In this document: piece after piece, positions 20,319-43,345 of the stretch
Position numbering within the stretch: the stretch's first letter is position 1
Layout of the letters: every line of letters begins with the position of its first letter
Position numbers and translations under genes: made by a program
The notes under the pieces: model-generated
Told to the model about the DNA's origin: nothing
What the model saw: only the letters and a program-made list of their open reading frames with translations
The model's database searches: none
Origin: Chloroflexota bacterium
Lineage (GTDB): Bacteria; Chloroflexota; Dehalococcoidia; Bin125
Reading direction: 5' to 3'
Length of the DNA: 64,000 nucleotides
Assembly: GCA_026707145.1 (NCBI GenBank)
Contig: JAPOXK010000011.1
Coordinates: 285,908-349,907, forward strand

Positions 20319-20343
20319 CGTCTTGCTCTCCGATCGGGATCGC

Positions 20344-25819: not shown

Positions 25820-26104
25820 CTAGAGAAAAGGGCCGCGGCACCGCGCCACCTTCTCGCTGGCGTCCCGCCGCATGTCCGGCAGCACGTGCGAGTCGAGATC
25901 GCTCGTCGTCGACATCTGCGTGTGGCCCAGGATGTCCATCACGGCCCCCATCGGTACGCCCGTCGAGAGCAGATAGGTCGCTGCGCCGTGGCGCAGGTCA
26001 TGAAAACGGACGGGCGGCAGCTCGGCCCGGCGGAGGTGATCGCGGAAGAGCCGCCCGACGACCATGCTCGTCGTACGGGGCCTGAAGTTTCCCACGCTCG
26101 GCGT
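25820..26104 (-). pseudogene. Tyrosine recombinase (phage integrase) C-terminal remnant, catalytic Tyr lost
   Basis: About 94 codons match the C-terminal catalytic domain of tyrosine recombinases: FHDLRHGAATYLLSTGVPMGAV contains the conserved HxLR motif, and DILGHTQMSTTSDLDSHVLP the second His (LGHTQ). The nucleophile position, normally Tyr in a DLYSHV-type motif, is Asp (GAC). The catalytic domain upstream of FRPRTTSM and the whole N-terminal arm are missing, with no start codon assignable. It is therefore an inactive fragment of a mobile element, 9 nt upstream of the ABC ATPase start. No second end of an element was found. Confidence 0.85.
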
Positions 26105-26238
26105 CGGTCCAGCGGGACCCCAAGGCGATCCCCGGCTCCTCGCTCCGCCCACGGCCCTCTTCTGTTCCCGCCCCCTGCCCCCGATAGTTCTACGCTGGAG
26201 CATCGGCCCGTGCCAGCGAGGGATCGGACGAGCGGCTG

Positions 26239-27048
26239 ATGTCGATTCTGGAAGCGGTGGTGCTCGGCATCCTGCAGGGCGTGACGGAGTTCCTGCCGGT
26301 ATCGAGCAGCGGCCATCTCGTCCTGGCCCGCTGGATCCTCGGCTGGGACGATCCGGGGCTGGCCTTTGATGCGGCGGTTCATGTGGGGACCCTGGCGGCC
26401 CTGCTGGTCGCCTTCCCGCGCCGCTGGATGCGTCTCGCGCTGGGCGCATGCGGTCGTGGCGATGCCCGTCAGGTCCGCGACCAGCGGCGCCTGCTGGTGC
26501 TCATCATCGTCGGAACGATTCCGATCGCGATCGTCGGGTTCACCGTGCGGAACAGCTTGGACGGCGCGCTGCGCGATCCCACCTGGGTGGGCGCCTTCCT
26601 GATCGTCACGGCGGCGCTGCTGGCGCTTGGGGAGTGGGCCGGGCGGCGATCGCGCGATCTGCACGGCCTGGATTGGCGGCGCGCTGCGCTCGTAGGGACG
26701 ATCCAAGCCGTCGCGATCCTGCCCGGCATCTCCCGCTCCGGCTTCGCGATAGTGGGCGGGCTGCTGGCGCAGCTGAGCCGGAGAGACGCAACGTTGTATG
26801 CGTTCTACCTTGCGGCGCCGGCGATCCTGGGTGCGGGCATCGTCGCCGGCTACGATGTGGCTCGGGATGGCGCCGCCGGCGTCGGAACCGATGTGGTCTT
26901 GGTCGCCGTCGCGATATCCTTCGCGACCGCCCTTCTCGCTATCCGGGCGCTGATGCTGCTGGTGCGATCGAGGACGTTCGCTCCCTTTGTGGCGTACTGC
27001 GCGCTCGCCGGGGTCGCGGTGCTGGCCGCCCGCGCGGCGGGCGCTTAG
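26239..27048 (+). CDS. uppP: Undecaprenyl-diphosphatase UppP (BacA)
   Basis: Membrane enzyme of 269 aa that removes a phosphate from undecaprenyl diphosphate so the lipid carrier of peptidoglycan synthesis can be reused; it also confers bacitracin tolerance. Signature motifs are complete: EAVVLGILQGVTEFLPVSSSGHL (residues 5-27) and the second catalytic motif LPGISRSGFAI near 153. Length and eight-helix pattern are normal. Its stop overlaps the opposing antiporter gene by 4 nt, leaving no room for a separate terminator. Confidence 0.95.
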   Translation: MSILEAVVLGILQGVTEFLPVSSSGHLVLARWILGWDDPGLAFDAAVHVGTLAALLVAFPRRWMRLALGACGRGDARQVRDQRRLLVLIIVGTIPIAIVGFTVRNSLDGALRDPTWVGAFLIVTAALLALGEWAGRRSRDLHGLDWRRAALVGTIQAVAILPGISRSGFAIVGGLLAQLSRRDATLYAFYLAAPAILGAGIVAGYDVARDGAAGVGTDVVLVAVAISFATALLAIRALMLLVRSRTFAPFVAYCALAGVAVLAARAAGA

Positions 27049-28745
27049 CCAAAGTGCTCCCGCCGCCGCCCCACGAGCGTCTGCCGGATCTCTTGGAGCG
27101 TGATTCCGTAGCGATGGAGGGTGTGATGCGCGATCTCGAACCCTCCCTCGAGTGACGGATCAACGACCGCGTTCGCGCCGGCAGCGGTCAGCCGCGCGGC
27201 AACGCCGGGCCCGCTTCCCCGCGCAACGATGTGGAGACGCGGATGCTCGCGCCGCACCCGCTCGACGATCGCCTCGCTCACAATCGCGTCGGAGAGGGTC
27301 ACCGCCACGACGCGGGCGCTGTCCAGCTGTGCCTCGTCGAGCGTCGCGGCATTGGCCAGATCTCCCCAGATGAAGGGGATTGCGCTGCCCCCTAACTCAT
27401 CCAAGAGACCGGGATCGGAATCGATCACGAGAAAGTGGAAGCCGCGACTGTCCAGGATCTGCGCCAGCTCGCGCCCGGTGTCGCCGTATCCGCAGATCAC
27501 GGTGTGCTGCTTGAGTTCCACGGTTTCCGCGCCGGTGTGTAGGGTTGCCGCCGGCAGGCGGCGTACGAAACGTACTCGCTCGATCGCTTGCTCCAGCCTG
27601 GCGCTGAAGCGCAGCGCGATCGCTGACAGCGCCATGCTGACCGTACCCACTGCGATCACGACCGGGCCCGCCTCATTGGCGGCGTTCGCCGTGGCAACGC
27701 TCGCAAGCAGGAACGCGAACTCCCCCATCTGGCCCAGGAGCAGACCGATCCGCAGGGCCCGCTTGGCATCGAAACGGGCCCACTGAGCTAGGACGAAGAT
27801 CAGAATGATCTTGCCGAGCGCGCCCCATGCCAGGAGAGAAAGGAAGAGCCCCCATTCCTCCGCGACCACGGCCAGGTCCAGCAACACGCCAACGCTGACG
27901 AAGAAGGTGGCGGCGAAGAGATCGCGCAGTGGGACAAGCTCGTGCAAGGCACGCGCCGCGTAGGGCGATTGCGCGGTGGCCAGGCCGGCCAGGAACGCGC
28001 CGAAGGCCAGCGACAGCCCCGCGGCGAAGCTCCCGAGTGCGATCCCGCTCGCGACCGCGAAGGTGGCGAGCAGGAAGAGCTCCCGCGAGCGCGTTTCGAG
28101 GACTTGGCGCAGAGCCCACGGGATCACGATGCGGCCGATGACCAGCACCGCGACGACGAGGCCGACGCCTTTGCCGATCGAAATCAGGATGTCTTCGACC
28201 AGCGCGCTTCCGGAGCTTTCACCGATCTGTGGCAACACCACAAGCAGCGGCACGGCGACAAGGTCTTGTGTCAGCGCGATGCCCAGCGCCCACTGCCCTG
28301 CCACGCGCTTGCGATCGCCGCTCTGCGAAAGCACGCGTACCAGCAACGCGGTGCTCGAGAACGCGGTGGCTCCGCCAATAAGAACGCAAGCGGAACTCGA
28401 GAGACCGAAGGCTTGCCCGATCACGTACCCCACCGCGCCGAGTACCACCATCTGCACCGTCGCAGCGCCGAGCAGCCGGCTGCCCAATCGGCGGAACTGC
28501 TGGAGGGGAAATTCGAGCCCGATCGTGAAGAGGAGCAGGGCGATGCCCAGCTCGGTGATGAAGGCGACGTCCTCGATGTCAAGAACAAGGTTGGCCACGG
28601 ACGGGCCGACGATCAGTCCGCCGATGATGTAGCCGGCGATTACCGGCAGCCGGAGGAGGTTAGCGGCGAACCCGCCGACGACGGCGGCGCCGACGAGAAT
28701 GACGAGTTCGGCCGTGACGTGGGAGCTGCTGGCTAGAGAGAGCAA
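27045..28745 (-). CDS. CPA2-family cation:proton antiporter with TrkA-N domain (KefB-like)
   Basis: Protein of 566 aa. Residues 1-390 form a twelve-helix Na+/H+ exchanger domain with LLLFTIGLEFPLQQFRRLG near residue 70 and the GGATAFSSTALLVRVLSQSGD segment near 125, where KefB/C and CPA2 antiporters have their transport core. Residues 415-530 are a TrkA-N (RCK) nucleotide-binding domain, CGYGDTGRELAQILDSRG. It probably exchanges K+ or Na+ for H+ under control of NAD(H) or similar ligand. The TrkA-C part is short or absent. It sits between uppP (convergent) and the mgs genes, 27 nt from mgsC on the same strand. Confidence 0.9.
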   Translation of the reverse strand: MLSLASSSHVTAELVILVGAAVVGGFAANLLRLPVIAGYIIGGLIVGPSVANLVLDIEDVAFITELGIALLLFTIGLEFPLQQFRRLGSRLLGAATVQMVVLGAVGYVIGQAFGLSSSACVLIGGATAFSSTALLVRVLSQSGDRKRVAGQWALGIALTQDLVAVPLLVVLPQIGESSGSALVEDILISIGKGVGLVVAVLVIGRIVIPWALRQVLETRSRELFLLATFAVASGIALGSFAAGLSLAFGAFLAGLATAQSPYAARALHELVPLRDLFAATFFVSVGVLLDLAVVAEEWGLFLSLLAWGALGKIILIFVLAQWARFDAKRALRIGLLLGQMGEFAFLLASVATANAANEAGPVVIAVGTVSMALSAIALRFSARLEQAIERVRFVRRLPAATLHTGAETVELKQHTVICGYGDTGRELAQILDSRGFHFLVIDSDPGLLDELGGSAIPFIWGDLANAATLDEAQLDSARVVAVTLSDAIVSEAIVERVRREHPRLHIVARGSGPGVAARLTAAGANAVVDPSLEGGFEIAHHTLHRYGITLQEIRQTLVGRRREHFG

Positions 28746-28772
28746 GGCACTGCGACCGCTGGAATGCTCGGC

Positions 28773-30149
28773 TTAGGGCCCGGGCGCGTCCGATCCAGGG
28801 ATCCAGTTCGTGCCGGCCAAGGGGACGCGGGCCATGGCGGCGGCCTCGATCGTAAGCGCAGCGAGGTCTTCCGGCTCGAGATGGTGGACGTTGGACTTGC
28901 CGCAGGCCCGGGCGAGCGCTGTCAGCTCCATCGTCAGCGCGCGGAGGTAGTTGGCGACGCGGCGCCCTCCCCAGGCCGGATCCAAGCGGCGCTCGAGCGC
29001 CGGCTCCTGCGTGGCGATGCCCACCGGGCAGCGGCCCGACTCCATGTGGTGACAGTAGCCCGGCTCGGTGCCGAGGGCGTGGTAGTCCGCCGTGGCGTCG
29101 ATCTCGCGCCCGTCTTGGAAATAGGTGCGGCTATTGCAGCCCAGCGCGATCAGAGCGGCCGTGCCGATCGAGACGGCGTCGGCGCCGAGCGCCAAGGCCT
29201 TGGCAACGTCCGCGCCCGAGCGGATGCCCCCGGACACGATCAGCTGCACATCGTCCTGCTTTCCGATCTCCCGCAGCGCCTCCGCGGCCAGACGCACCGC
29301 GGGAAGCGTGGGGATCCCCGCATGCTCAATGAAGACATCCTGGGTCGCGGCCGTGCCGCCTTGCATCCCGTCCACCACGACCACGTCCGCGCCGGCGGCG
29401 ACGGCGAGCTTGACGTCGTTGTTCGTGCGCGTCGCCCCGATCTTCACGTAGATCGGGATCTGCCAGGCCGTGGCCTCGCGCAGCTCCTCGATCTTGATAC
29501 GCAGATCGTCGGGACCGGTCCAATCGGGATGCCGGCTCGCCGATCGCTGGTCGATGCCGGCCGGGAGCGTCCGCATCTCCGCGACGCGGTCACTCACCTT
29601 CTGGCCCAGCAACATGCCGCCGCCGCCCGGCTTCGCGCCCTGCCCGATCACCACCTCCACCGCATCGGCCTGCTGCAGGTCGGCGGGATTGAACCCGTAG
29701 CGCGAGGGCAGCAACTGGTAGACGAGGAGCTTGGATGCGCGGCGCTCTTCCGCCGTCATGCCCCCGTCGCCGGTCGTCGTCGATGTGCCGGCTTCGCTGG
29801 CGCCACGCCCCAACGCCTCTTTCGCGTTGGCGGAGAGCGCGCCGAAGCTCATGCCGGCGATCGTGATCGGGATCTCGATCGTGATCGGCTTGGCCGCTAC
29901 CCGAGCTCCCAGCACGGTCCGCGTCTCGCAGCGCTCGCGGTAACCTTCCAACGGATACCGCGATGCGGATGCCGTTAGCAGGACCAGATCATCGAATGTG
30001 GGCAGCGGGCGCTTGCTGCCGCCGCCTCGGATCTCGTAGCGGCCCTCATCGGCCATCCGGGTGATCTGCGCGATCGCCTCCGGCGGAAACGTGTGGCTGT
30101 GGCGCTTGGCGTCGTAGGGGAGGCGCGGTTCGTCCAAGGAGCGGGTCAT
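28773..30149 (-). CDS. mgsC: N-methylglutamate synthase subunit C-like (glutamate synthase FMN-domain protein)
   Basis: Protein of 458 aa homologous to the FMN/[3Fe-4S] half of glutamate synthase. FMN-barrel segments are AGMSFGALSANAKEALGRGASEAG near residue 102, VIGQGAKPGGGGMLLGQKVS near 170, YVKIGATRTNNDVK near 247 and IVSGGIRSGADVAKALALGADAVSIG near 310. The cluster cysteines are visible in LGCNSRT and in CHHMESGRCPVGIATQ. It lacks amidotransferase and GXGXG domains, which are encoded separately by the next two genes. This three-gene split is shared by mgsABC (N-methylglutamate synthase) and glxBCD; with gmaS divergent and mgdABCD beyond, N-methylglutamate synthesis is the best reading. 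mgsC starts inside the TAATG junction of mgsB. Confidence 0.85.
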   Translation of the reverse strand: MTRSLDEPRLPYDAKRHSHTFPPEAIAQITRMADEGRYEIRGGGSKRPLPTFDDLVLLTASASRYPLEGYRERCETRTVLGARVAAKPITIEIPITIAGMSFGALSANAKEALGRGASEAGTSTTTGDGGMTAEERRASKLLVYQLLPSRYGFNPADLQQADAVEVVIGQGAKPGGGGMLLGQKVSDRVAEMRTLPAGIDQRSASRHPDWTGPDDLRIKIEELREATAWQIPIYVKIGATRTNNDVKLAVAAGADVVVVDGMQGGTAATQDVFIEHAGIPTLPAVRLAAEALREIGKQDDVQLIVSGGIRSGADVAKALALGADAVSIGTAALIALGCNSRTYFQDGREIDATADYHALGTEPGYCHHMESGRCPVGIATQEPALERRLDPAWGGRRVANYLRALTMELTALARACGKSNVHHLEPEDLAALTIEAAAMARVPLAGTNWIPGSDAPGP

Positions 30150-30826
30150 TAGTACGCGTGTCCGGCTACGGCCTTGAAGTGGTAGAGCGCACGCGCCGAG
30201 GCCACGCGTTTCACGTTCTGGGGATCGATGTGATCGAAACCGGTCTGTTGGATCAGCTGTCGCACGCGCTGCACGTCGCCTTCCGTCAGCTCTTCCACCC
30301 GGGCATCTGCTCCGAGGGATCGAATGGCCCCACCGACGTAGATCACTGCCTCGTAGAGGGAATCGCCCAGGCCCGCGCCGGCGTCGCCGCCGATCAAGAT
30401 CGTGCCTGCCTGCGCCATGAATCCGCTCATATGCCCGGCGTCCCCCGCAACCACAAGCGTGCCCCCTTTCAAGGAAATTCCGGCGCGCGAGGAGGCGTCG
30501 CCGTCGACGATGACCAATCCTCCGTGGCTCGATGCCCCCGCGCTCTCGGAGGCATTGCCGCGCACCCGCACCGTTCCGCTCATCAAGTTTTCACCCACGG
30601 ACCAGCCGACGAAGCCATCGACGACGATCGAGGGGCCGTCGCCTAGCCCCCCGATGAAATATCCCGCGTTGCCGGCGATCGTGATCGTGATCTGGTTGCG
30701 CAGACCCACGGCGAGGTTGTGCCTGCCCTGCGGTTCGGTGATCGAAACCCTCGATCCGTCCGGCAGCTCTGCAAGCGCGCGATTAATCGCGCGTGTACTG
30801 AGCTCCGCGCAGCTCAGCGTGACCAT
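30149..30826 (-). CDS. mgsB: N-methylglutamate synthase subunit B-like (GXGXG domain protein)
   Basis: Protein of 225 aa covering the GXGXG beta-helix domain that forms the C-terminal part of ordinary glutamate synthase. Repeats such as NAGYFIGGLGDGPSIVVDG, GGLVIVDGDASSRAG, GGTLVVAGDAGHMSG and GTILIGGDAGAGLGDS run in tandem from about residue 50 to 155. It is structural, positioning the FMN and amidotransferase units. The start overlaps mgsA by 13 nt and the stop overlaps mgsC by 1 nt, so the three products are likely made in equal amounts. Confidence 0.85.
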   Translation of the reverse strand: MVTLSCAELSTRAINRALAELPDGSRVSITEPQGRHNLAVGLRNQITITIAGNAGYFIGGLGDGPSIVVDGFVGWSVGENLMSGTVRVRGNASESAGASSHGGLVIVDGDASSRAGISLKGGTLVVAGDAGHMSGFMAQAGTILIGGDAGAGLGDSLYEAVIYVGGAIRSLGADARVEELTEGDVQRVRQLIQQTGFDHIDPQNVKRVASARALYHFKAVAGHAY

Positions 30827-31698
30827 ACGTGGATCTCCTCGGGCCCGGGCTCGAAGATGGCGGCCTCTTGGATACCCGGCAACCGGGCGAGCGCTCGATA
30901 CTCGGAGGCCATCGCCACGAAATCCGGTGCTTCCGCGATCACCGCGGGCTTGCAGGCGAACGCGTCCCGGACGACGGCGAACTGATTCCGCGACGCCACC
31001 AGCAGCGTGAAGAACCCGTCGAACTCCGTCAGCACCTTGCCGAGCGCCGCCTGCAGGTCATCGCCGTGCTGCATGTGGTAGGCGATGAAACGCGCTGCCA
31101 CTTCCGAGTCGTTGTCGGTGCTGCAGCGGACGCCCGCATCCTCCAGGCGCCGGCGGATCGTTGCGTGGTTGGAGAAGCTGCCGTTGTGGACCAAGCAGAG
31201 GTCGGCGGCGGTTGCGAAGGGGTGCGAGTGATCGGTGGTGACCGCTGATTCCGTGGCCATGCGCGTGTGCCCCAGCCCTTGATAGCCGGAGCGCTGGGTG
31301 ATGCCGTAGCGCTCCAGAATATCCACGGGCGCGCCGATGTCCTTGTACACCTCGATGGCACTGCCGTACGCGAAGACGCGGAGATCGGGCGCTTGCGCGG
31401 CCAGCTTCTCCAGGACGGCAGCGGGGCTGCCGGTCGCGGTAAGGACCGCGTCATCGGCCACGGGACGGATCACGGCCTCCTCGCCCAGCCGTTCACTCGT
31501 GCCTTCCCAATCGTAGCCGGGTCCTGGCGCTCGCAGCGAATAGCGCAGGCTCCCCGTCGGCAGCCCCTCCTCGTAGAGAGCGATGCCGGCCGAGTCCGGC
31601 CCGCGCTCGCTCATGGCGAGGAGCATCTGGCTCAGGAGTGCGCCCAGCTGGGAATGGAGATCCGGGCTCTTGCAATGAAGTCCGACGATGCCGCACAT
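30814..31698 (-). CDS. mgsA: N-methylglutamate synthase subunit A-like (class II glutamine amidotransferase)
   Basis: Ntn-type amidotransferase, 294 aa. The start MCGIVGLH places Cys2 as the N-terminal nucleophile after removal of Met; the ATG at 31698 has GGAGGAAGG upstream, and the frame extends upstream without similarity. GHTRMATES near residue 145, HNGSFSNHATIR near 170 and STDNDSE near 192 are the glutamine-binding motifs. In N-methylglutamate synthase the equivalent subunit handles gamma-glutamylmethylamide and passes methylamine on. First gene of the mgsABC unit, divergent from gmaS across 116 nt. Confidence 0.85.
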   Translation of the reverse strand: MCGIVGLHCKSPDLHSQLGALLSQMLLAMSERGPDSAGIALYEEGLPTGSLRYSLRAPGPGYDWEGTSERLGEEAVIRPVADDAVLTATGSPAAVLEKLAAQAPDLRVFAYGSAIEVYKDIGAPVDILERYGITQRSGYQGLGHTRMATESAVTTDHSHPFATAADLCLVHNGSFSNHATIRRRLEDAGVRCSTDNDSEVAARFIAYHMQHGDDLQAALGKVLTEFDGFFTLLVASRNQFAVVRDAFACKPAVIAEAPDFVAMASEYRALARLPGIQEAAIFEPGPEEIHVWSR

Positions 31699-31814
31699 GG
31701 CCTTCCTCCGCTCCGTCCATAGTAGCGAGAGCGCTTCCCCGCTAGCAGGCAGCCGCTTCCCAGGCGGCCTATCCTGAACAGCCGTTAGCACGGCGCAGCG
31801 CCCGGAGGACCCCG

Positions 31815-33173
31815 ATGGCCAACGACGATCACGCGCAGCTACGAAAACAGGCGGAACGGGACGGGATCGAGTTCTTCTTCGCGATGTTCGTCGATATGCA
31901 TGGCAAGCCCTGCGCCAAGCTCGTACCCGCCGCCTCGTTCGACACCTTGATGGAAGAGGGCGCGGGCTTCGCGGGGTTCGCTGCCGGACCGATGGGGCAG
32001 ACTCCCGCTGATCCGGACATGATGGCGATCCCGGACCCGGCCTCGTACACGCCGGTGCCGTTTCGGCCGGGGCTGGCCGTCCTGCACTGCGACATCCACG
32101 TGGAGGGCGAGCCGTGGTCCTACGCGCCGCGCCTGATCCTGAAGCGCCAGCTGGCGCGCCTGGCCGATCGCGGGATGATCTTCAACTGCGGCGCCGAAGT
32201 CGAGTATTTCCTCGTCAGACGCACGGGCGAAGGGGGGATCCAGCCCGCCGATCCGCTCGATACCGCCGCGCAACCCTGCTACGACGCCAAGGGCCTCACG
32301 CGCATGTACGATCACCTCACGACCGTTTCCACCTACCTCAATCGCTTGGGGTGGGCCAACTACGCCAACGACCACGAAGACGCCAACGGTCAATTCGAGC
32401 AGAATTTCACCTACGCCGACGCCCTGACCACGGCCGACCGCGTGATCTTTTTCCGCTACATGGTGCACACGCTGGCCCAGGAAGCTGGGTTGGCGGCGAC
32501 CTTCATGCCGAAACCGTTCGCGCACCTGACCGGCAACGGCATGCACGTGCATACCAGTCTCTGGGACGATGGCGGTGAGCCGCTCTTCCACGATACGGAC
32601 GACTCCCGCGGTCTGGGATTGTCGGCGCTCGCCTACCAATTCATCGCCGGGATCCTCGAGCACGCGCCCGGCCTCGTCGCGCTCACGGCGCCGACGGTCA
32701 ACTCCTATAAGCGGATCGGCGTCGGACCGCCCGCCTCGGGGGCAACGTGGGCGCCGGCCTATGCGACCTACGGCGGCAACAACCGCACCCAGTTGCTGCG
32801 GGTGCCGGAGGCGGGCCGTGTCGAGCATCGTGGCGTCGATGGATCAGCGAACCCGTACCTGGCCCTGACGGGCATACTGGCCGCGGGCCTTGATGGGATC
32901 GATCGCGGACTGGACCCGGGCGATCCCAATCGCGACAACCTTTTCGCTCTGACGCCCGAGGCAGTGGCCGCGCGCGGGATCGGCACGGTTCCTCAAACCC
33001 TGGTGGCTGCGGTCGATTCCTTGGCGAGGGATGACGTGCTCCGCACCGCCTTGGGAGAGGTGCCCGGCGGCTGGTACGCCGACTACTACATCGAGACGAA
33101 GCGAGCGGAGTTTCGTGAGTACCATCAAGCCGTGAGCGCTTGGGAGATCGAGAAGTACCTGACATTGTTCTAG
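31815..33173 (+). CDS. gmaS: Gamma-glutamylmethylamide synthetase-like (glutamine synthetase family, GlnT/GmaS type)
   Basis: ATP-dependent ligase of 452 aa in the glutamine synthetase superfamily. Catalytic-domain motifs are NCGAEVEYFLV near residue 125, DHEDANGQFEQNF near 190, NGMHVHTSLW near 240 and the NSYKRIGVG-x-SGATWAPAYATYGGNNR region near 296-318 that binds phosphate and glutamate. The ending WEIEKYLTLF is characteristic of the GlnT/GmaS clade rather than housekeeping GlnA. GmaS joins methylamine to glutamate. GGAGG lies 6 nt before the ATG. Divergent mgsABC and following mgd genes support the assignment. Alternatives are a type III glutamine synthetase or another amine-glutamate ligase. 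Confidence 0.85.
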   Translation: MANDDHAQLRKQAERDGIEFFFAMFVDMHGKPCAKLVPAASFDTLMEEGAGFAGFAAGPMGQTPADPDMMAIPDPASYTPVPFRPGLAVLHCDIHVEGEPWSYAPRLILKRQLARLADRGMIFNCGAEVEYFLVRRTGEGGIQPADPLDTAAQPCYDAKGLTRMYDHLTTVSTYLNRLGWANYANDHEDANGQFEQNFTYADALTTADRVIFFRYMVHTLAQEAGLAATFMPKPFAHLTGNGMHVHTSLWDDGGEPLFHDTDDSRGLGLSALAYQFIAGILEHAPGLVALTAPTVNSYKRIGVGPPASGATWAPAYATYGGNNRTQLLRVPEAGRVEHRGVDGSANPYLALTGILAAGLDGIDRGLDPGDPNRDNLFALTPEAVAARGIGTVPQTLVAAVDSLARDDVLRTALGEVPGGWYADYYIETKRAEFREYHQAVSAWEIEKYLTLF

Positions 33174-33239
33174 CGAGAGGGACTCCGTTTCCGCCATGCA
33201 GCGTATGCGGCAGCACGGTCCTGATTTGAGGTCAGTGGA

Positions 33240-34523
33240 ATGCGGCGGCGACTGAGCGGCGGCGGCCAGCGGCCGGCGGCGCGCTACTCAGCTCTGAGCC
33301 TGTTGCGCCACGGCTTGACCGGCCGTGACTGGCCGCCCGCATGGACCCACCACGATCTGGCCCCCAGCTATGACGTGGTAATCATCGGGGGCGGCGTCCA
33401 TGGCCTCGCGACCGCCTACTACCTCGCCGCTAACCACGGGATCCGCAACGTGGCCGTGCTGGAGAAGAGCTACATCGGCGGCGGCGCCTCGGGCCGCAAT
33501 ACGGCGATCATCCGCTCGAACTACCTCACGCCGGAGGGCGTGCGCTTCTACAATCGCTCGCTCACCCTGTACCAGCGGCTCGCTGCCGAGCTCAACTTCA
33601 ACGTGATGTTCGAGCAGCGCGGTCATCTCACGCTTGCGCACAACGATGCCTCGTTGCGGACCATGCGCTGGCGGGCGGAGGTCAACAAGCTGGAGGGTGT
33701 CGATTCGGAAGTGATTGGTCCTGCGGAGATCAAGAAGCGTGCGCCGTACCTAGATGTCTCGGAGGAGCCCCGCTTTCCGATTCTGGGAGCTCTTTATCAT
33801 CCCCCCGGTGGGATCGTTCGGCACGACGCCGTTGTGTGGGGCTACGCCAGGGGAGCAGACGCGCACGGCGTCCATATTCATCAAGGGACCACGCTGCTCG
33901 GCATCGACGTCGCGGACGGTCGCGTGCGCGGAGTCGCCACCAGCCGCGGGCCGATCGCCACGCCGGTCGTAGTCAACTGCACGGCCGGTTGGTCCAGCAC
34001 CGTGGCGGCGATGGCGGGCGTCGAGTTGCCGATCACCACCTTCCCACTTCAAGCGGCCGTGACCGAACCCGTCAAGTTCTTTCTGGATCCCGTGATCGTG
34101 TCCGGCACCTTGCACGTCTATGTGAGCCAGACGGCGCGCGGCGAGCTGGTCCTCGGCGCCAGCGTCGACCCCTACCCCGCTTACTCGACTCGCGGGAGCC
34201 TTGAGTTCACGGAGGAGGTGGCGGCGCACGTGCTGGAGCTCTTCCCGTCCCTGGCGGATCTGCGCGTGTTGCGGCAGTGGGCTGGCCTCTGTGATATGAC
34301 TCCCGACTTCTCGCCGATCCTCGGCAAGACACCCGTCGAGGGGTTCCACGTCGATGTCGGTTGGGGGACCTATGGATTCAAGGCAGGCCCCGTCTCCGGC
34401 GAGGCCATGGCGCAGCTCGTGGCAACCGGAGAGACGCCGGCCATCATCAAGACTTTCGACCTGGTGCGATTCGAAGACGGGCGCCTCGTGGGAGAGAAAG
34501 GCGCCGCCTCCGTGGGACACTGA
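33240..34523 (+). CDS. mgdA: N-methylglutamate dehydrogenase subunit A / sarcosine oxidase beta-like FAD protein
   Basis: Flavoprotein of 427 aa, SoxB type. The N-terminus YSALSLLRHGLTG and the FAD motif VVIIGGGVHGLATAYYL (residues 46-62) match the family, as does NVAVLEKSYIGGGASGRNT. His195 in the RHDAVVWGYAR segment corresponds to the histidine that carries covalent FMN in heterotetrameric sarcosine oxidase. The C-terminus GTYGFKAGPVSGEAMAQLV is typical. In the NMG pathway it oxidises N-methylglutamate to glutamate with release of a one-carbon unit. In creatine catabolism the homologous enzyme oxidises sarcosine. It begins 66 nt after gmaS on the same strand. Confidence 0.88.
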   Translation: MRRRLSGGGQRPAARYSALSLLRHGLTGRDWPPAWTHHDLAPSYDVVIIGGGVHGLATAYYLAANHGIRNVAVLEKSYIGGGASGRNTAIIRSNYLTPEGVRFYNRSLTLYQRLAAELNFNVMFEQRGHLTLAHNDASLRTMRWRAEVNKLEGVDSEVIGPAEIKKRAPYLDVSEEPRFPILGALYHPPGGIVRHDAVVWGYARGADAHGVHIHQGTTLLGIDVADGRVRGVATSRGPIATPVVVNCTAGWSSTVAAMAGVELPITTFPLQAAVTEPVKFFLDPVIVSGTLHVYVSQTARGELVLGASVDPYPAYSTRGSLEFTEEVAAHVLELFPSLADLRVLRQWAGLCDMTPDFSPILGKTPVEGFHVDVGWGTYGFKAGPVSGEAMAQLVATGETPAIIKTFDLVRFEDGRLVGEKGAASVGH

Positions 34524-34536
34524 TGGAGATGCATTC

Positions 34537-34812
34537 ATGCTCTTGATCCCCTGCGTGCACTGCGGACCCCGCAACGTCTCCGAGTTCGCCTATGCGGACG
34601 CGGTTCTTCCCGCGCCCGATCCCAACGCCGCGCCGCCCTCCGTTTGGCGACGCTATCTCTACATGCGGACGAACCCGGCGGGCTGGACGAGCGAGTGGTG
34701 GTATCACCAGTCCGGCTGTCGGCGCTACTTCATGGTCGAGCGGGACACCCGCACGAACGAGATTCGAGCAGCCGCTCTCCCCCCGCGCCCGGCCGATCGC
34801 GGCGCGCCATGA
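34537..34812 (+). CDS. mgdB: N-methylglutamate dehydrogenase subunit B / sarcosine oxidase delta-like zinc protein
   Basis: Small protein of 91 aa. It starts LLIPCVHCGPRNVSEFAYA; CxxC plus the later HQSGCRRYF motif supplies zinc ligands (two Cys, one His, one Cys) as in SoxD. YLYMRTNPAGWTSEWWYHQSGC is replicated in all delta subunits. The ATG at 34537 follows the mgdA stop by 13 nt and the stop overlaps the mgdC start (ATGA). Confidence 0.88.
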   Translation: MLLIPCVHCGPRNVSEFAYADAVLPAPDPNAAPPSVWRRYLYMRTNPAGWTSEWWYHQSGCRRYFMVERDTRTNEIRAAALPPRPADRGAP

Positions 34813-37646
34813 CAAGCGCCGGCACGCCCCCCACCATCCCTGCCCGCATGACCCGGCGGCTCGCACCGCAGGCAGGCGAGCTGATCGATCGAGACCGCCA
34901 GATCGTCTTTAGCTGGGACGGGGATCGCTATCCCGCCTACCAGGGGGACACGATCATTTCCGCCCTGGCCGCTTGCGGGCAGCGTGTCTTCTCGCGCAGC
35001 TTCAAGTATCACCGCCCGCGTGGCCTGCTGACGGCGAACTTCAACGACCCCGGCTGTCTCGTGCAGGTGGATGGCGAGCCGAATGTGCGCGCCGCGCACC
35101 GGCGCGTCGAACCGGGCATGCACGTGCGGTCCCAAAACGTGTGGCCCTCGCTGCAGCATGATCTCGGGGCGGTCAATCAAGCGATCAGCCGCCTGCTGCC
35201 CGCGGGGTTTTACTACAAGACGTTCATGGCGCCCCGGGCGCTGTGGCCCGTCTACCAGCGGGTATTTCGTCGCTTCGCTCCCGGAGGCAGAGTGCCGCGC
35301 GGCGCGGCGGAGGGCTACTACGACAAACGCTACGCGCATCCCGATGTCCTCGTCGCGGGCGGCGGCCCCGCCGGAATGGCCGCCGCCGCCGCCGCCGCCA
35401 CCGCCGGAGCCCGGGTGTTGCTCGTCGAGGAGGAGTACGAGCTTGGCGGCCACCTCCGCTGGGGGGACGCGGCGCAACTCGCGCGGCTCGCGGAGCTTCG
35501 CACGGCAGTCGCGGCCGCGCCCTCGATCGAGGTCTTAGCGAACGCCGCCGTGATCGGCCGCTACGACGACAACTGGGTGGCCGTGGCGCAGCGTGATCTT
35601 CCCCATGCCCGCGAGCGCCTCATCAAAGCGCGAGCCAGCGTGCTGGTGGTCGCGCCCGGCTTGATCGAGCGTCCCTACGTATTCGCCGGCAATGACAAGC
35701 CCGGCGTGATGCTCTCGACCGCCGTGCGCCGTTTGATCAACCTTTACGCAGTCCGCCCCGGCGAGCGTGCCGTTGTGCTGACGGCGAACGCTGAGGGTGA
35801 CCGGGCGATCGCCGATCTCGAACGCGCGGGCGTCCAGTTGGCTGCGGTCGTGGACGCGCGGCAGGGCGAGGATGTCGTGGCGGCGCGCGGGGGCGGTCTC
35901 CTGCGGGAGGTCGAGCTGGCGGGAGGGCGGGTGGTGGAGGCGGACCTGCTCGTCACGGCCGTGGGATGGACTGCACCCACGGCGCTGCTCAACATGGCGG
36001 GCGTCCGGCCCGCGTACGATCCGCGAGCCGGGCGGTTCTTCCCGCGCGACCTTCCGGACGACCTCTTGGCGGCGGGGGGGATCGCGGGCGACGGAACGCT
36101 CGATCAGATCGTCGATCATGCCCGTGCCGTCGGCAGGGAGGCGGCACGGCGCGCCCGGGCGCGTGGCGGCCGCAGTGCGCCGCCCAACCCTCTTCCCGCG
36201 TTGCCGATCGACACAGCGCTCTCCCTGTTCCGATCGAGCACGCACGGCATCGTGGACTACTCCGAAGACGTCTCTTCTAAAGATGTGGTCGGCGCCGTGC
36301 GCGAGGGCTTTGATTCCATCGAGCTGGCCAAGCGCTTCACGACCGCGACGATGGGACCGGCGCAGGGCAAGCTGGAGCTTGTCAACACCGTGGCGGTGCA
36401 CGCCGAGGCGACCGGGCGCGACATCGCCGGGACGGGCACGACGACCTGGCGTCCGCCGTATGCTCCCGTGTCGCTGGGGGCGCTCGCGGGGCGCAGCTTC
36501 CAGCCGGTCGCCTATTCATCCCTGCAGCCCTGGCATGCACGGCAGGGCGCGAAGCCGCTCGTGGCGGGACAGTGGATCCGGCCCGACCACTACGGCGACC
36601 CGGCGGCCGAGGTACGGAACGTTCGGGAGAACGTCGGCATCATCGATGTGACGCCGCTGGGAAAGTTCGAACTGCAGGGACCGGATGTCGCCCGCCTGCT
36701 GAACTATCTCTACGTCAACAAATGGATGAAGCTGGCGGTGGGCTCCGTGCGCTACGGCGTCATGTGTGGGCGGGACGGCGTCGTCTTGGACGACGGCGTC
36801 ACCGGCCGTCTCGCCGACGACCGCTACATCATGACGACGACCTCCTCGGGTCCCGAGACCGTGTGGCGCTGGATCGAGAACGTCCTCCAAACCGAGCATC
36901 CGCAGTGGCGGATCCACGTCACGCCCCGGACGAGCGCCCTGGCGAGCATCAACGTGGCCGGGCCGAAAGCGCGGACGCTGCTGCAGCGGCTTGTCGAGGG
37001 GATCGACCTGGATCCGGAGGCCTTTCCTTACATGCGCGTGCGCAGCGGCGCCGTTGCCGGCATTCCGGGCTGCTTCATGTGGCGCATCGGCTTCACGGGC
37101 GAGCTGAGCTACGAGATTCACGCTCCCGCCGCCTACGGCCTCCAGCTCTGGGAAACGCTGCTTGCTACGGGTGCGGATCTGGGCGTGGCGCCCTTTGGCA
37201 TCGAAGCCCAGCGCATCATGCGCTTGGAGAAGGGGCACTTCATCGTCGGGCAGGATACGGACGGCCTCACGCAGGCCTACGCCGCCGGCGTCGGCGCCTT
37301 GGTGAAGCTGGATAAGGAGGATTTCGTCGGAAAACCGGAGCTCGTCTGGGCCGCGCAACGCGGCGACCAGCAGATACTCGTCGGGCTGCAGCCCGCCGAC
37401 GGATCGATCGTGCCGGACGAGGGCTGTCAGCTCGTTGAGGGCGAGCGGGCGATCGTGGGGCGGATCACGTCGAGCCGCCTGTCGCCGACGCTGGGGCGAT
37501 CGATCTGTCTCGGCTTTGTCGAGCCCCGGCTGGCCGCTGCGGGCACGATGGTGGAGGTACGGCTCGTCGACGGCCGGCGCCTGCCCGTGCGCGTCATGGA
37601 GCATCACGCGCACTACGATCCCGAGGGGCTGCGGCTTCGTGTCTGA
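34809..37646 (+). CDS. mgdC: N-methylglutamate dehydrogenase subunit C / sarcosine oxidase alpha-like
   Basis: Large subunit of 945 aa, SoxA type. An N-terminal ferredoxin-like domain (residues 15-110, FKYHRPRGLLTANFNDP) is followed by an NAD(P)-binding oxidoreductase (VLVAGGGPAGMAAAA near 180). Then come a small zinc/SoxA-A3-like segment with CTERMINAL features, and from about residue 570 an aminomethyltransferase (GcvT-like) folate domain with IDVTPLGKFELQGPDVARLL near 615, IPGCFMWRIGFTGELSYEIHAP and GLEAQRIMRLEKGHFIVG-like folate-binding stretches. The folate domain should capture the methyl-derived carbon on tetrahydrofolate. ATG overlaps mgdB by 4 nt. Confidence 0.88.
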   Translation: MTSAGTPPTIPARMTRRLAPQAGELIDRDRQIVFSWDGDRYPAYQGDTIISALAACGQRVFSRSFKYHRPRGLLTANFNDPGCLVQVDGEPNVRAAHRRVEPGMHVRSQNVWPSLQHDLGAVNQAISRLLPAGFYYKTFMAPRALWPVYQRVFRRFAPGGRVPRGAAEGYYDKRYAHPDVLVAGGGPAGMAAAAAAATAGARVLLVEEEYELGGHLRWGDAAQLARLAELRTAVAAAPSIEVLANAAVIGRYDDNWVAVAQRDLPHARERLIKARASVLVVAPGLIERPYVFAGNDKPGVMLSTAVRRLINLYAVRPGERAVVLTANAEGDRAIADLERAGVQLAAVVDARQGEDVVAARGGGLLREVELAGGRVVEADLLVTAVGWTAPTALLNMAGVRPAYDPRAGRFFPRDLPDDLLAAGGIAGDGTLDQIVDHARAVGREAARRARARGGRSAPPNPLPALPIDTALSLFRSSTHGIVDYSEDVSSKDVVGAVREGFDSIELAKRFTTATMGPAQGKLELVNTVAVHAEATGRDIAGTGTTTWRPPYAPVSLGALAGRSFQPVAYSSLQPWHARQGAKPLVAGQWIRPDHYGDPAAEVRNVRENVGIIDVTPLGKFELQGPDVARLLNYLYVNKWMKLAVGSVRYGVMCGRDGVVLDDGVTGRLADDRYIMTTTSSGPETVWRWIENVLQTEHPQWRIHVTPRTSALASINVAGPKARTLLQRLVEGIDLDPEAFPYMRVRSGAVAGIPGCFMWRIGFTGELSYEIHAPAAYGLQLWETLLATGADLGVAPFGIEAQRIMRLEKGHFIVGQDTDGLTQAYAAGVGALVKLDKEDFVGKPELVWAAQRGDQQILVGLQPADGSIVPDEGCQLVEGERAIVGRITSSRLSPTLGRSICLGFVEPRLAAAGTMVEVRLVDGRRLPVRVMEHHAHYDPEGLRLRV

Positions 37647-38289
37647 GGACGGCGCTTCAGTGGCTCGGCTGCTCGCGCGCAGCCCCATCACGCCGCCCCC
37701 GCCGCTGGTCGTCGCGGAGGGCTGGGAGGTGAGCGGGCGCCGCAGCGGCGCCGCGCTGCGGCTCAGCGACTGCACGCCGCTGGCCAAGCTGTTGGTCCGG
37801 GGGGACGAACAAGGGCGGTTCCGCGCGCGTTTCGGCATCGGCGTCGGCGCGGCGCGGCTGCTCAGTCCGGATCTGCTCGTGATCGGTTGGGGACCTGGAG
37901 AGTGGACGCTCCTGGGACCGCCCGGCGCGGAGGAGCGGCTGGCGTCGGTCGCGGCGCTCGATCGAGACGACGGTGGCGGCGAGTTTTTGAGTGCGACGGA
38001 GGTCACGCACGGTCACGCGCTGATGCGGCTGGCCGGGACCGCCGCCGCCGCGCTGCTTGCCAAGATCTGTGCGATCGACCTTGGCGATGACGTCACGCCC
38101 AACGGCGCGGCCTTCCGCAGCTCGGTCGCCAAGCTGGTGACCGAGGTCGTCCGGCACGACCGCGACGGCGAGCCCGCCTATTGGCTCCAGTGCGACCGCG
38201 CCTTCGGCCAGTACCTGTTCGATGCGGTGCTTGATGCGGGGGCGGAGTTCGGCATTGAGGTCGATGGTTTCCGCCCGCCCTGGATCTGA
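37639..38289 (+). CDS. mgdD: N-methylglutamate dehydrogenase subunit D / sarcosine oxidase gamma-like
   Basis: Protein of 216 aa of the SoxG type, a shortened GcvT-like fold that pairs with the alpha subunit. Visible segments are SDCTPLAKLLVRGD near residue 38, ICAIDLGDDVTPNGAAFRSSVAKL near 140 and a late CDRAFGQYLFDAVLDAG. The GTG at 37639 overlaps the mgdC stop by 8 nt; an upstream in-frame ATG lies inside mgdC and is less likely. The stop is 8 nt before ureF, so the urease genes follow in what looks like the same transcript. Confidence 0.82.
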   Translation: MSEDGASVARLLARSPITPPPPLVVAEGWEVSGRRSGAALRLSDCTPLAKLLVRGDEQGRFRARFGIGVGAARLLSPDLLVIGWGPGEWTLLGPPGAEERLASVAALDRDDGGGEFLSATEVTHGHALMRLAGTAAAALLAKICAIDLGDDVTPNGAAFRSSVAKLVTEVVRHDRDGEPAYWLQCDRAFGQYLFDAVLDAGAEFGIEVDGFRPPWI

Positions 38290-38297
38290 GTTCGACC

Positions 38298-38966
38298 GTG
38301 GCGTTACTGACAGCGCTGCAGCATGGGGACAGCTTTTTCCCGAGTGGAGGAGTGGCCTTCTCCCAGGGGGTGGAGACGCTGCACGGGGAGGGCCGCCTGC
38401 CTGACGGCGAGGAGGTTGGGCGGCTCCTGCGGGAGCAGGTGCTCGGCCGCTGGGCGGAATGCGACCGGGCGGTCATCACCGCCGCGCATCGCGCCGGCGA
38501 CGACCTGGAGGCTGTTACGGCTGCCGATCGCGCGCTGGAGGCGGCGACGCTCCCGCGGGAGCTGCGAGAGGGCTCACGCCGGGCAGGAGCGGCGTTTTTG
38601 GGGGTCCACTGCCAACTGGAGACGCGCAATGCCCAGGCCTACCAAGAGCGGGTCGGCCGCCGTACGGCTCCGGGGCATTTGGCCGCTTGCCAGGGGCTGC
38701 TCTGGCGCGGCGCCGGGCTCAGTGAAGCCGAGGCCGCCGCCGTTGCCGCTCACGCCCTGTGCGTGGGGGTGCTGGGCGCGGCCATCCGGCTGGGGGCGAT
38801 CGGCGCGGTCGGGGGGCAGCGCTTGCTCACGGCGATACAACCGGCGCTCGCGGAGATGCTTGCGCAGCCCCCGCCCCCGATCGAGGCGCTCGCTAGCTAT
38901 GCTCCAGTCGTCGAACTGGCTGTCCTGCGCCATGAGCAGCTCGACAGCCGCTTGTTCGCGAACTGA
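38298..38966 (+). CDS. ureF: Urease accessory protein UreF
   Basis: Helical accessory protein of 222 aa. The N-terminal [26 protein letters not shown] is the family hallmark (HxDSxFPxGGxxxSxGxE), and [17 protein letters not shown] near residue 115 fits the central helix. It works in the UreDFG complex that delivers nickel and CO2 to the urease active site. GTG start, 8 nt after mgdD. It is unusual for ureF to open the operon, ahead of the structural genes. Confidence 0.9.
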
Positions 38967-38992
38967 CGCGAAAAGAGGAGGAAGGGGAAGCG

Positions 38993-39688
38993 ATGCTGCT
39001 GACGCCGACGGAAACCGAACGCCTCCTGATCTTCAGCGCGGCCGAGTTGGCGCGCAAACGCCGAGCGCGCGGGCTCAAGCTGAACCATCCGGAGGCCGTT
39101 GCGCTCATCTCGGACGAGATCTTGGAGCGTGCCCGCGACGGACATTCCGTCGCGGAGCTGATCACCGCGGGGACCACGATCCTCACCACCGACGACGTGC
39201 TGCCCGGCGTCGCCGCGATGACGCCCATGATCCAGGTCGAGGCGACCTTCCCGGACGGCACCAAGCTGGTCACGCTGCACGATCCGATCCGGCCCGGCCA
39301 AGAGCCCCAGGCCACAGCGGTCGTTCCCGGCGAGATCATCCCCGCGGCGGGAGAGGTCCAGCTCAACGCGGGGCGGCGCAGCGCTACCGTGCGCGTCTTC
39401 AACCGGGGCGACCGGCCGGTGCAGGTCGGCAGCCACTACCATTTCTTCGAAGTCAACCGCGCCCTGGAGTTCGATCGCCCGGCGGCGTTCGGCATGCACC
39501 TCGACATCCCCGCCGGCACGGCGCAGCGCTTCGAGCCCGGCGAGAGCAAGGAAGTCCCGCTGGTGGAGTTCGGGGGCAGCGGCGAGCTCTTCGGCCTGAA
39601 CAGCCTGACGGACGGCGATCGCACGCAACCGCAAGTCGAAGCGGCCGCCCTGCGCCGCGCCGCCGAGCGCGGCTTTGGGGGAGCGTGA
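38993..39688 (+). CDS. ureAB: Urease gamma-beta fusion subunit (UreAB)
   Basis: Protein of 231 aa with the gamma subunit (residues 1-100, [23 protein letters not shown] ... [19 protein letters not shown]) joined to the beta subunit (about 118-215, [21 protein letters not shown] ... [17 protein letters not shown]). A fused gamma-beta chain occurs in several lineages, including some actinobacteria. GAGGAGGAAGG upstream is the strongest ribosome-binding site in the operon, consistent with high expression of structural subunits. UreC starts 3 nt later. Confidence 0.95.
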
Positions 39689-39691
39689 GCG

Positions 39692-41404
39692 ATGGCGACG
39701 ATCTCCCGCTCCCGCTACGCCACGCTCTACGGTCCCACCACCGGTGACGCCGTCCGCCTGGGCGACACCTCGCTCCTGGCGGAGGTGGAGCGCGACCATG
39801 CCTTTCCCGGAGACGAGGGGCTTCACGGCGGCGGCAAGACGTTACGGGACGGTCTCGGCCTCGTGCCGGGCCTTGCCAGCGCCGACGGATCCCTCGACAT
39901 GCTCGTCAGCAACGTGGTGGTGATCGACCCCATCCTGGGCGTGGTCAAGGGCGACATCGGCATCAAGAACGGCCGCATCGTCGGCATCGGCAAGGCGGGC
40001 AATCCCGCCACCATGGACAACGTCGACCCGCGGCTGCTGTGCGGCGCCGCGACCACCGTGCGCGACGGGGAAGGGCTGATCGCGACTCCCGGCGCCATCG
40101 ATTGCCACGTGCACTTCGACAGCGCCCAGCTCGTCGCGCACGCGATCAGCAGCGGCGTCACCACCATGCTGGGCGGCTCCTTGGGGCCGATCACGGTCGG
40201 GATCGATTGCGGCGGCGCCTGGAACGTCGCCCGCATGCTGCAGGCGGCCGAGGCCTGGCCGATGAACTTCGGCTTCCTGGGCCGAGGCAACTCCTCCAAG
40301 CCGCGATCGCTCGTCGACCAGATAGAGGCGGGCTGCCTCGGGCTGAAGATCCACGAGGACTGGGGCGCCATGCCGGCGGTGATCGACTGCTGCCTCTCCG
40401 TCGCGGACGAGATGGACTTCCAGGTGCAGCTGCACACGGACACGCTCAACGAGAGCGGCTTCCTGGAGGACACGCTCGCCGCCATCAAGGGCCGGACGAT
40501 CCACATGTACCACGCGGAAGGGGCCGGCGGCGGCCACGCGCCCGACATCATCCGCGTCGCGGGCGAGCCGAACTGCCTCCCTTCGTCGACGAACCCGACG
40601 AATCCCTACACGGTCAACACCTTCGACGAGCACCTCGACATGACCATGGTCTGCCACCACCTCAACCCGTCCGTGCCGGAGGACGTCGCCTTCGCCGAGA
40701 GCCGCATCCGCGCGGAGACGATCGCCGCCGAGGACGTCCTGCACGACATCGGCGCGATCTCGATGCTCGGCTCGGACAGCCAGGGGATGGGCCGCATCGC
40801 CGAGGTGATCTGCCGCACCTGGCAGCTGGCGAGCAAGATGCGCGACCAGCGCGGCCGGCTGACCGAGGAGCGCGTCGCCCGCGGCGACAACGAGCGCATC
40901 AAGCGCTACATCGCCAAGTACACCATCAACCCGGCGCGGGCCTTCGGCATCGATCACGAGATCGGCTCGCTGGAGGACGGCAAGCTGGCGGACGTCGTGC
41001 TCTGGCGCCCCGCCTTCTTCGGGATCAAGCCGGAGCTGGTGATCAAGGGCGGCTTCATCGCTTGGGCGGCGATGGGCGACAGCGCCGCCTCGCTGATGAC
41101 CTGCGAGCCGGTGACGATGCGGCCCCAGTGGGGCGCCTTCGGGCGGGCCAAGGAGGCGCTCAGCGTCAGCTTCGTCTCGCAAGCCGCGCTCGACGCCGGC
41201 TTGGGCGGGACGCTGGGCCTCGAGAAGCGGCTGGTGGGCGCGCGCGGCACGCGGAGCCTGAGCAAGCGCGACATGCTGCACAACGCCGCCTGCCCCGAGA
41301 TGCGCGTGGACCCCGAGACCTTCCGCGTCTACGTCGACGGGGAGCTGGCGACCTGCGCGCCCGCGTCGGAGTTGCCGTTGACGCAGCGCTACCTGCTGCG
41401 ATGA
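39692..41404 (+). CDS. ureC: Urease alpha subunit UreC
   Basis: Catalytic subunit of 570 aa hydrolysing urea to ammonia and carbamate. All nickel-site residues are in place: His139 and His141 (CHVHFDS), carbamylated Lys219 (GLKIHEDWG), His248 (LHTDTLNE), His274 ([14 protein letters not shown]), and Asp362 (GSDSQGMG). The flap cysteine and histidine are Cys321-His322 (VCHHLN). Length and order are normal, so the enzyme should be active. Its stop overlaps the ureG start (ATGA). Confidence 0.97.
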
Positions 41405-42036
41405 CGGATCGCGCGGCCCGCCCCCTGCGCCTGGGAATCGGCGGCCCCGTCGGCTCCGGCAAGACGGCCCTGATCGAGGCGCTGGTTCCGCGCTTGCAGG
41501 AGCGCGGCTGGGAGATCGCCATCATCACCAACGACCTGCTCACGCAGGAGGACGCCGAGCGCCTGCGCGGGCGCGGCTTCATCGACCCGGCGCGCGTGCT
41601 GGGCGTGGAGACCGGCGCCTGCCCGCACACGGCGATCCGCGAGGACCCCTCGCTCAACAACGAGGCGCTGCGGCGGCTGGAACGCGCCTGCCCCCGCCTG
41701 GACCTGGTCGTGATCGAGAGCGGGGGCGACAACCTCGCCTCCACCTTCTCCTCCGAGCTCGTCGACGCCTGGCTCTTCGTCATCGACGTCGGCGCCGGCG
41801 ACGACATCCCTCGCAAGCGCGGCCCCGGCATCCTCCAGTGCGACCTGCTCGTGGTCAACAAGATCGACATCGCGCCCTACGTGCGCGCCGACCTCGATCG
41901 AATGCGGCGGGATCTGGCCCGCGCGCGGGCGGGACGCCCCGTCGCCTATACCAACTGCCTGACCGGCGAGGGCTTGGAGGGCGTGCTGGCGCAGATCGAA
42001 GCGGCGCGCGGGCGAGCGCTGGCGGCGGCGCGGTGA
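41401..42036 (+). CDS. ureG: Urease accessory GTPase UreG
   Basis: SIMIBI-class GTPase of 211 aa. P-loop [15 protein letters not shown] is at residues 12-26, the metal-binding CPH motif in [13 protein letters not shown] near residue 78, the [12 protein letters not shown] motif near 106, and the guanine-specificity NKID near 153. It supplies GTP-dependent nickel delivery to UreC. Start overlaps ureC; stop overlaps ureD (GTGA). UreG lacks a histidine-rich tail, and no ureE is present, so the nickel donor is not obvious. Confidence 0.96.
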
Positions 42037-42887: not shown

Positions 42888-43345
42888 GGCGCGCAATCGA
42901 GCGCGGCCGTGAGATGAGCGTTGCGAAAGGGGCTGTAGGCTCGGCTTTTACCCAGGGACTCGCCTCAGGGAATCCCTCTCCGAAACGGGCATCGCCCGCC
43001 CCCTCCGCGGATCGATCGCCAAACCTGCACGACGCGCCACGCGAGAATGGGCAGCGTGACAACGCAGAGGATCGCCGCCGCGAGCCCGCGCGTCCGGCCG
43101 GCAATGCCGTCGCGGCCCCTCTTTAGCATCGGCGTCGCCTCTCTCTGCTGTAGACGGAGATCATCATCTGTCCCCGGACGCAGGTCCCATGAGGATGGTA
43201 TCGATCACGAGGAGGTCAGGGGAAGCCGTCGCTCTCGCCACTTCGGCAGCCGCGAAGAGGGGTAGCGGCCACAGACGGCGTGGGAGAGGCTCGCCTTGAC
43301 GCGTGGACGCTGTACCAGAGAATTTTTTCTGGTGCGAGGAGCCTT
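42888..43345. other. Intergenic stretch after the urease operon
   Basis: About 458 nt with no gene I can support. The last 60 nt (from about 43280) could encode GEARLDAWTLYQRIFSGARSLRIAD in frame with the start of the ureD-like remnant and may be its decayed upstream part. No long T-rich hairpin was found after ureD. Confidence 0.4.

Follow-up and report, generated by a model that had tools for sequence, protein, structure and literature searches.

The stretch of DNA analysed here (the window) comprises 64,000 nucleotides of contig JAPOXK010000011.1 from an uncultured Chloroflexota bacterium (assembly GCA_026707145.1). Its positions 28773–38289 very probably hold a complete gene set for the N-methylglutamate (NMG) pathway, judging from sequence: mgsC, mgsB and mgsA on the minus strand lie divergent from gmaS, mgdA, mgdB, mgdC and mgdD on the plus strand. 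Each of the eight encoded proteins matches the expected domain family in profile searches. An earlier note, made from the letters alone, had placed these genes here, and all eight are present, with family matches that are strong or above cut-off. Gene presence, family membership, conserved residues, tree placement and absence from other members of the host's family are the observed basis of this reading. The NMG pathway itself is already known, and the set in the window is closest to its actinobacterial version.

Probable identity of the ligase, dehydrogenase and synthase

The gmaS product is a predicted γ-glutamylmethylamide synthetase, and several lines of evidence support this. The model TIGR03105, to which it scores 620 bits (cut-off 469.6), is named for type III glutamate–ammonia ligase; the best matches in the PDB, however, are 9qur, a glutamate–methylamine ligase (425 bits), and 7cql, the GmaS of Rhodovulum sp. 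12E13 (RhGmaS, 409 bits), with glutamine synthetases at 237 bits or less. The tree groups the window protein with both crystallised GmaS and separates it from the two glutamine synthetases that it contains, and so bears out the assignment made in the earlier note. In the careful tree of 41 rows, the window protein belongs to a third subclade of the GmaS group and the two solved structures to two others. Twenty-one RhGmaS residues, with roles taken from part of PMC7948447, were mapped by alignment, and 19 are identical in the window, including the catalytic residues R312, D177 and E186 and the methylamine-pocket residues K30, Y147, D177, E179, E186 and N188. The two exceptions are Ala184, in place of the pocket residue Gln175, and Phe198, in place of Trp189. 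Among 99 GmaS rows (scores of 300 bits or more and lengths above 420 amino acids (aa), plus two PDB fragments), K30, Y147, Y174, D177 and N188 are invariant, and both glutamine synthetases compared deviate at all five. The Gln175 position is more variable, with 74 Gln, 24 Ala and one Glu; the 23 alanine rows other than the window's include 15 from Actinomycetota and seven from Chloroflexota.

This alanine, together with a gene for an N,N-dimethylformamidase (DMFase)-like amidase 9 kb downstream, makes other substrates plausible: the ligase and Mgs might act on ethylamine or another small primary amine, in a related N-alkylglutamate route. The other methylamine-pocket residues are kept, however, and a set of Mgd genes for N-demethylation is attached, and a different amine seems very unlikely indeed.

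The four Mgd subunits, which resemble SoxBDAG of sarcosine oxidase, are linked to gmaS and the mgs genes. All four match sarcosine oxidase family models, and MgdA matches the SoxB chain 2gag_B with 372 bits; Mgd could accordingly be imagined as a true sarcosine oxidase, with GmaS and Mgs an unrelated nitrogen module adjacent by chance. The scores of MgdA (513 bits, TIGR01373 cut-off 529) and MgdC (850 bits, TIGR01372 cut-off 1164), however, lie below the curated sarcosine oxidase cut-offs. In a quick tree of 59 rows, MgdA falls with gmaS-linked copies from five loci, four of them from Actinomycetota, in a six-row group (Shimodaira–Hasegawa-like approximate likelihood ratio test (SH-aLRT) 99), outside a separate ten-row group (SH-aLRT 100) that holds the crystallised SoxB (2gag, 1vrq). 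Moreover, the seven core genes (mgsABC, gmaS and mgdABC) occur together in 47 of 118 loci, each fetched for having one of them. A chance neighbour of this kind is very unlikely, and sarcosine oxidase was rejected as the identity of Mgd on the family cut-offs and on the tree, whose groups have no resolved order among themselves. Grouping with sarcosine oxidase, the outcome that the earlier note had named as contrary to its proposal, was not seen for MgdA and the crystallised enzymes.

Some observations weigh against the NMG reading. At the position of RhGmaS Gln175, the window has the residue of both glutamine synthetases compared, and MgsC lacks one cluster cysteine, having Met369 instead; with Ala184 and Phe198 of GmaS, this also qualifies the earlier statement that key residues are intact. 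In the MgdA tree, the main Mgd and Sox groups are not resolved relative to each other, and the gmaS-linked Mgd of Rhizobium (L160) and Aminobacter (L165) group with sarcosine oxidase. For the last two reasons, homology alone does not fix the substrate of Mgd, nor does the MgdA tree prove it. The [2Fe–2S] site of MgdC, considered as a mark of a dehydrogenase, did not discriminate: the window protein has Cys43 and Cys70 only, and some other Chloroflexota copies (L051, L060) have a full-looking set. A scan of viral contigs found no relatives of MgdA. The histidine that is the covalent flavin mononucleotide (FMN) site of SoxB is conserved in MgdA, and the CVHCG motif of MgdB, with a later His and Cys, we take to have a role in zinc binding.

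MgsABC consists of three separate subunits, with amidotransferase, GXGXG and FMN domains, encoded beside gmaS. One further GXGXG protein is encoded in the host genome, within a 1598-aa frame as in GltB. The longest mgsA frame opens at a GTG at 31791, and the MCGI sequence, common to all nine aligned MgsA rows, begins at residue 32 of this frame. Because of this shared Met–Cys and a Shine–Dalgarno-like AGGAAGG upstream of the ATG at 31698, the start is most likely at 31698 (MCGIVG) rather than at the GTG; the divergent gap would therefore be 116 bp. The cysteine of MCGI is the nucleophile in amidotransferases of this type. An out-of-frame open reading frame (34592–34912) overlaps mgdB, so that this gene is easily overlooked; the true frame scores 92 bits against SoxD. 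No sigma-70-type promoter was found in 28600–43200, against 0.8 expected, a result of little weight in this organism.

The reactions, the electron acceptor and the physiological use we infer from the genes. GmaS would form γ-glutamylmethylamide from methylamine, glutamate and ATP. MgsABC would move the methylamine onto 2-oxoglutarate (or exchange it with the nitrogen of glutamate), giving N-methylglutamate, and MgdABCD would oxidise it back to glutamate, releasing a one-carbon unit that is probably methylene-tetrahydrofolate formed at the folate domain of MgdC, or else formaldehyde. The electrons from Mgd would pass into an oxidase-terminated respiratory chain, and the cell would gain methylamine nitrogen and some reducing power. 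The host genome encodes a formate–tetrahydrofolate ligase and a heme–copper terminal oxidase.

Table 1. Coordinates of the NMG genes and associated features in the window, with the basis of each assignment
Feature	Position	Strand	Basis
mgsC, FMN/glutamate-synthase-domain subunit of N-methylglutamate synthase, 458 aa	28773..30149	-	PF01645, 310 bits
mgsB, GXGXG subunit of N-methylglutamate synthase, 225 aa	30149..30826	-	PF01493, 40.2 bits (cut-off 32.5)
mgsA, class II glutamine amidotransferase subunit, 294 aa from MCGIVG	30814..31698	-	PF13522 (70 bits)/PF13537
Divergent gap mgsA/gmaS, 116 bp	31699..31814	.	Span between mgsA start (31698) and gmaS
gmaS, predicted γ-glutamylmethylamide synthetase, 452 aa	31815..33173	+	TIGR03105, 620 bits (cut-off 469.6); PDB matches, residues, tree
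mgdA, SoxB-like flavin adenine dinucleotide (FAD) subunit of N-methylglutamate dehydrogenase, 427 aa	33240..34523	+	TIGR01373, 513 bits (cut-off 529); alignment to 2gag_B; tree
mgdB, SoxD-like small subunit, 91 aa	34537..34812	+	PF04267, 92 bits; CVHCG, later His and Cys
mgdC, SoxA-like alpha subunit with GcvT/folate-binding domain, 932 aa	34848..37646	+	TIGR01372, 850 bits; PF01571, PF08669, PF17806 (scored on longer frame 34644–37646)
mgdD, SoxG-like gamma subunit, 209 aa	37660..38289	+	PF04268, 28.8 bits (cut-off 21); TIGR01375, 50.8 bits (scored on longer frame 37435–38289)
Glutamate-synthase-type Cys site, MgsC residues 338–374 (Cys338, Cys366, Met369, Cys374)	29028..29138	-	Alignment of MgsC rows, masked tree

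The cysteine site of MgsC

Among its best 80 matches, MgsC is 81% identical to a copy from a Euzebyaceae metagenome-assembled genome (MAG) and 80% identical to a Pseudonocardia copy. From the alignment and from what is known of glutamate synthase, we take residues 338, 369 and 374 of the window protein to correspond to the three ligands of the [3Fe–4S] cluster in that enzyme. Cysteine at all four positions 338, 366, 369 and 374 is found in 95 of the 136 aligned MgsC rows, or in 85 of 121 when L061–L075 are left out (15 rows of re-fetched genomes and distant glutamate-synthase-like sequences). The window protein has Cys–Cys–Met–Cys, as do L080, L081, L090 and L059. It thus departs from the glutamate-synthase-type four-cysteine motif, which is common but not universal and so does not define the family. 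None or few of the four cysteines are present in one clade, to which copies from Methylobacterium, Rhizobium, Aminobacter, Roseovarius, Streptomyces and Ca. Mycobacterium methanotrophicum belong, and five divergent copies from family f48 have no cysteine aligned at the site. On a 51-row tree of selected aligned rows with the motif columns masked, three changes suffice to account for the three cysteine states; the root of this tree carries a long-branch warning. Genomes of family f48 have extra mgsABC sets (L035, L037, L038, L039, L040), whose MgsC is 43–45% identical to that of the window and without the four cysteines, and no gmaS match was found in these stretches.

According to part of PMC6237917, the mechanism of N-methylglutamate formation is still to be unravelled. 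The part of PMC5023235 consulted lists ferredoxin reductase among the functions responding to methylamine in Methyloversatilis universalis; its iron–sulfur passage concerns a cytochrome complex. The MgsC of a Methyloversatilis MAG copy (L126) has the four cysteines, and that of a plasmid copy from Methylobacterium sp. DM1 (L078) has none. The varying cysteine states, the ferredoxin reductase response of M. universalis and the four-cysteine Methyloversatilis copy suggest that NMG synthase may occur in cluster-bearing and cluster-free forms. More tentatively, there might be at least two working forms, though we regard this as the less probable case: one with an iron–sulfur cluster that uses outside electrons for reductive methylamination of 2-oxoglutarate, and another, in which the cluster was lost once, that works redox-neutrally via FMN alone. 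The window protein and its actinobacterial kin would then represent a third state, with three cysteines, a methionine and a remodelled cluster. If true, the unsettled mechanism of N-methylglutamate synthase would differ between lineages.

Host genome, distribution and origin of the cluster

The contig with the cluster is 435 kb long, in a genome of 2.42 Mb that is 92.6% complete. The cluster resembles those of Actinomycetota and is absent from the family of the host, and two other genes on the contig, for the urease alpha subunit (ureC) and a molybdopterin oxidoreductase large subunit, went unmatched at E 1e-60 when the other 19 genomes of the family were searched. These facts would fit a misbinned actinobacterial contig, foreign to the Chloroflexota genome. 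The same contig, however, encodes secY, rpoA and ribD, and 18 of the other 19 genomes in the family have a secY 71–75% identical to the one encoded there; the genome without a match is 79% complete. The tetranucleotide composition of the NMG stretch agrees with its own contig (r 0.933) better than with four actinobacterial loci (0.50–0.83), and the contig as a whole is by far nearer to the other large contig sampled than to those loci. Misbinning was therefore rejected and is extremely unlikely. Because secY is conserved in the family and the composition of the cluster matches the contig, the contig is native and the NMG cluster is ameliorated to the host composition.

Three genomes of the same class, all of one family (1.5–1.9 Mb, a single contig each), gave 27, 19 and 30 reductive-dehalogenase matches. 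On this ground, we infer that they are Dehalococcoidaceae and that the class of the host is Dehalococcoidia, phylum Chloroflexota. The guess in the earlier note that the organism is a monoderm fits a Chloroflexota class with reductive-dehalogenase-rich genomes, the class name being derived as above. No heme–copper oxidase was found in the one Dehalococcoidaceae-type genome tested.

Of 400 Chloroflexota genomes sampled, 24, the host among them, have relatives of MgsA with at least 128 bits; the next best genome listed scored 68.6 bits. The seven core genes lie in one stretch in 17 of the 400, again with the host, and in one of the other 16 (L056) gmaS is cut by a contig end. In the remaining seven of the 24, the end of a contig or of the fetched stretch cuts the locus, the stretch was taken no further (G308), or members are missing (G391, with a distant gmaS-like gene only). 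Within the class, MgsC scores above 500 bits in seven of 393 genomes, including the host. None of the 19 other family genomes has an NMG-type mgsC: in 18 nothing matched at 1e-60, and the match in the nineteenth (210 bits, 38% identical) belongs to the outgroup in the tree of MgsC. In the named collection searched, five of the top six MgsC matches (76–81% identical) are from Actinomycetota; further phyla among the best 80 are Planctomycetota, Pseudomonadota, Acidobacteriota, Spirochaetota, Cyanobacteriota, Verrucomicrobiota and Latescibacterota. Part or all of another cluster, a paralogue of this one, stands beside the NMG genes in L087, L089, L090, L141 and L147 (actinobacteria, SAR11 and Chromatiales), with gmaS-like genes 28–31% and MgsC 53–55% identical to those of the window. 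The Chloroflexota genome G243 has such a paralogous cluster (L036) on a different contig from its NMG cluster (L058).

The careful GmaS tree places the window in one clade with ten Actinomycetota rows (support 100/99.7), and the approximately unbiased (AU) test rejects a single clade of the nine Chloroflexota rows (p-AU 2.06e-7). The masked MgsC tree unites the window with ten rows, nine of them from Actinomycetota (98/93), and with L080, L081 and L090 (98/86). A history shared with Actinomycetota is thus well supported by the GmaS, MgsC and MgdA trees. As all three place the set there, horizontal transfer between the phyla is likely. Two points tell against this picture: the initial GmaS, MgdA and MgsC trees were quick ones with long branches flagged, and a clade of the ten actinobacterial-type MgsC rows without the window is not rejected by the AU test (p 0.363), which leaves the direction of transfer open. 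The whole set most likely came from Actinomycetota or was exchanged with them, at a time remote enough that its composition has come to match that of the host. The GmaS of Chloroflexota families f37 and f51 nests with alpha- and gammaproteobacterial copies and that of the window with Actinomycetota; the phylum has therefore probably gained the NMG pathway more than once, from different sources.

Directly after mgdD comes a urease operon (ureF, fused ureAB, ureC, ureG and ureD; 38298–42887). Urease was considered and dismissed as a part of the NMG system: no ureC or ureAB match is listed at the relatives' loci, and the two are neighbours only. The large-subunit-like protein of DMFase (PDB 6lvb, 373 bits) is encoded at 47352–49520; with the urease and NMG genes, it gives what looks like an organic-nitrogen region. 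A tRNA-Pro called by ARAGORN at 48035–48125, inside the DMFase-like frame, is probably a false call. On the other side, the molybdopterin oxidoreductase and its FeS/NrfD membrane partner occupy 17403–21726, and a match to the phage integrase family (38.7 bits) at 25820–26449, near the cluster, is perhaps a trace of mobility.

Comparison with known systems and range of the pathway

Pseudonocardia nigra DSM 104088 (L081, NZ_JAHKRK010000105.1) has all eight genes, as does the window; its MgsC is 80%, MgdA 75%, MgdC 67% and GmaS 66% identical, and its MgsC has the same Cys–Cys–Met–Cys site. The genes mgsABC–gmaS–mgdABCD run in one direction in this strain, whereas those of the window are divergent. 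All eight are also present in the actinobacterial MAG L087. The gmaS gene is divergent from mgsA in the close relatives L082, L083, L084 and L087 too, but in L082, L084 and L087 mgdABCD follows mgsC and in the window it follows gmaS. The layout of the window is absent from the 18 layouts found among the 47 loci with seven core genes.

Methylobacterium extorquens DM4 and Methyloversatilis universalis FAM5 have the same gene set, as described in parts of PMC6237917 and PMC5023235. The mgd and mgs–gmaS units of strain DM4 are divergent, though the split point and the phylum differ from those of the window (PMC6237917, in part). The NMG genes gma, mgsABC and mgdABCD were predicted in 2015 in Gram-positive Mycobacterium; according to part of PMC5023230, strains sp. 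141 and 155 have the full predicted set. Compared by description, their mgd genes are, by locus number, far from gma–mgs, unlike in the window (PMC5023230, in part).

The suggestion in the earlier note that finding the full set in a lineage of this kind would widen the known range is weakened by the Mycobacterium prediction, by the actinobacterial affinity of the nearest genes and by the 17 of 400 Chloroflexota genomes with the seven core genes. For Chloroflexota themselves, no report of the NMG pathway was found in the open-licence PMC literature, mostly judged by title or abstract start. The parts consulted of PMC8262859, PMC11264602, PMC7660913 and PMC12381374 do not report it in this phylum; corrinoid methyltransferase genes are reported instead in that of PMC11264602.

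With these genes, Chloroflexota, including the class of the dehalogenating Dehalococcoidaceae, join the bacteria that carry genes for methylamine use, and this bears on the question of which organisms consume methylamine. The cysteine pattern of MgsC offers a direct handle for testing the open mechanism of N-methylglutamate synthase and may prove to outweigh the main result.

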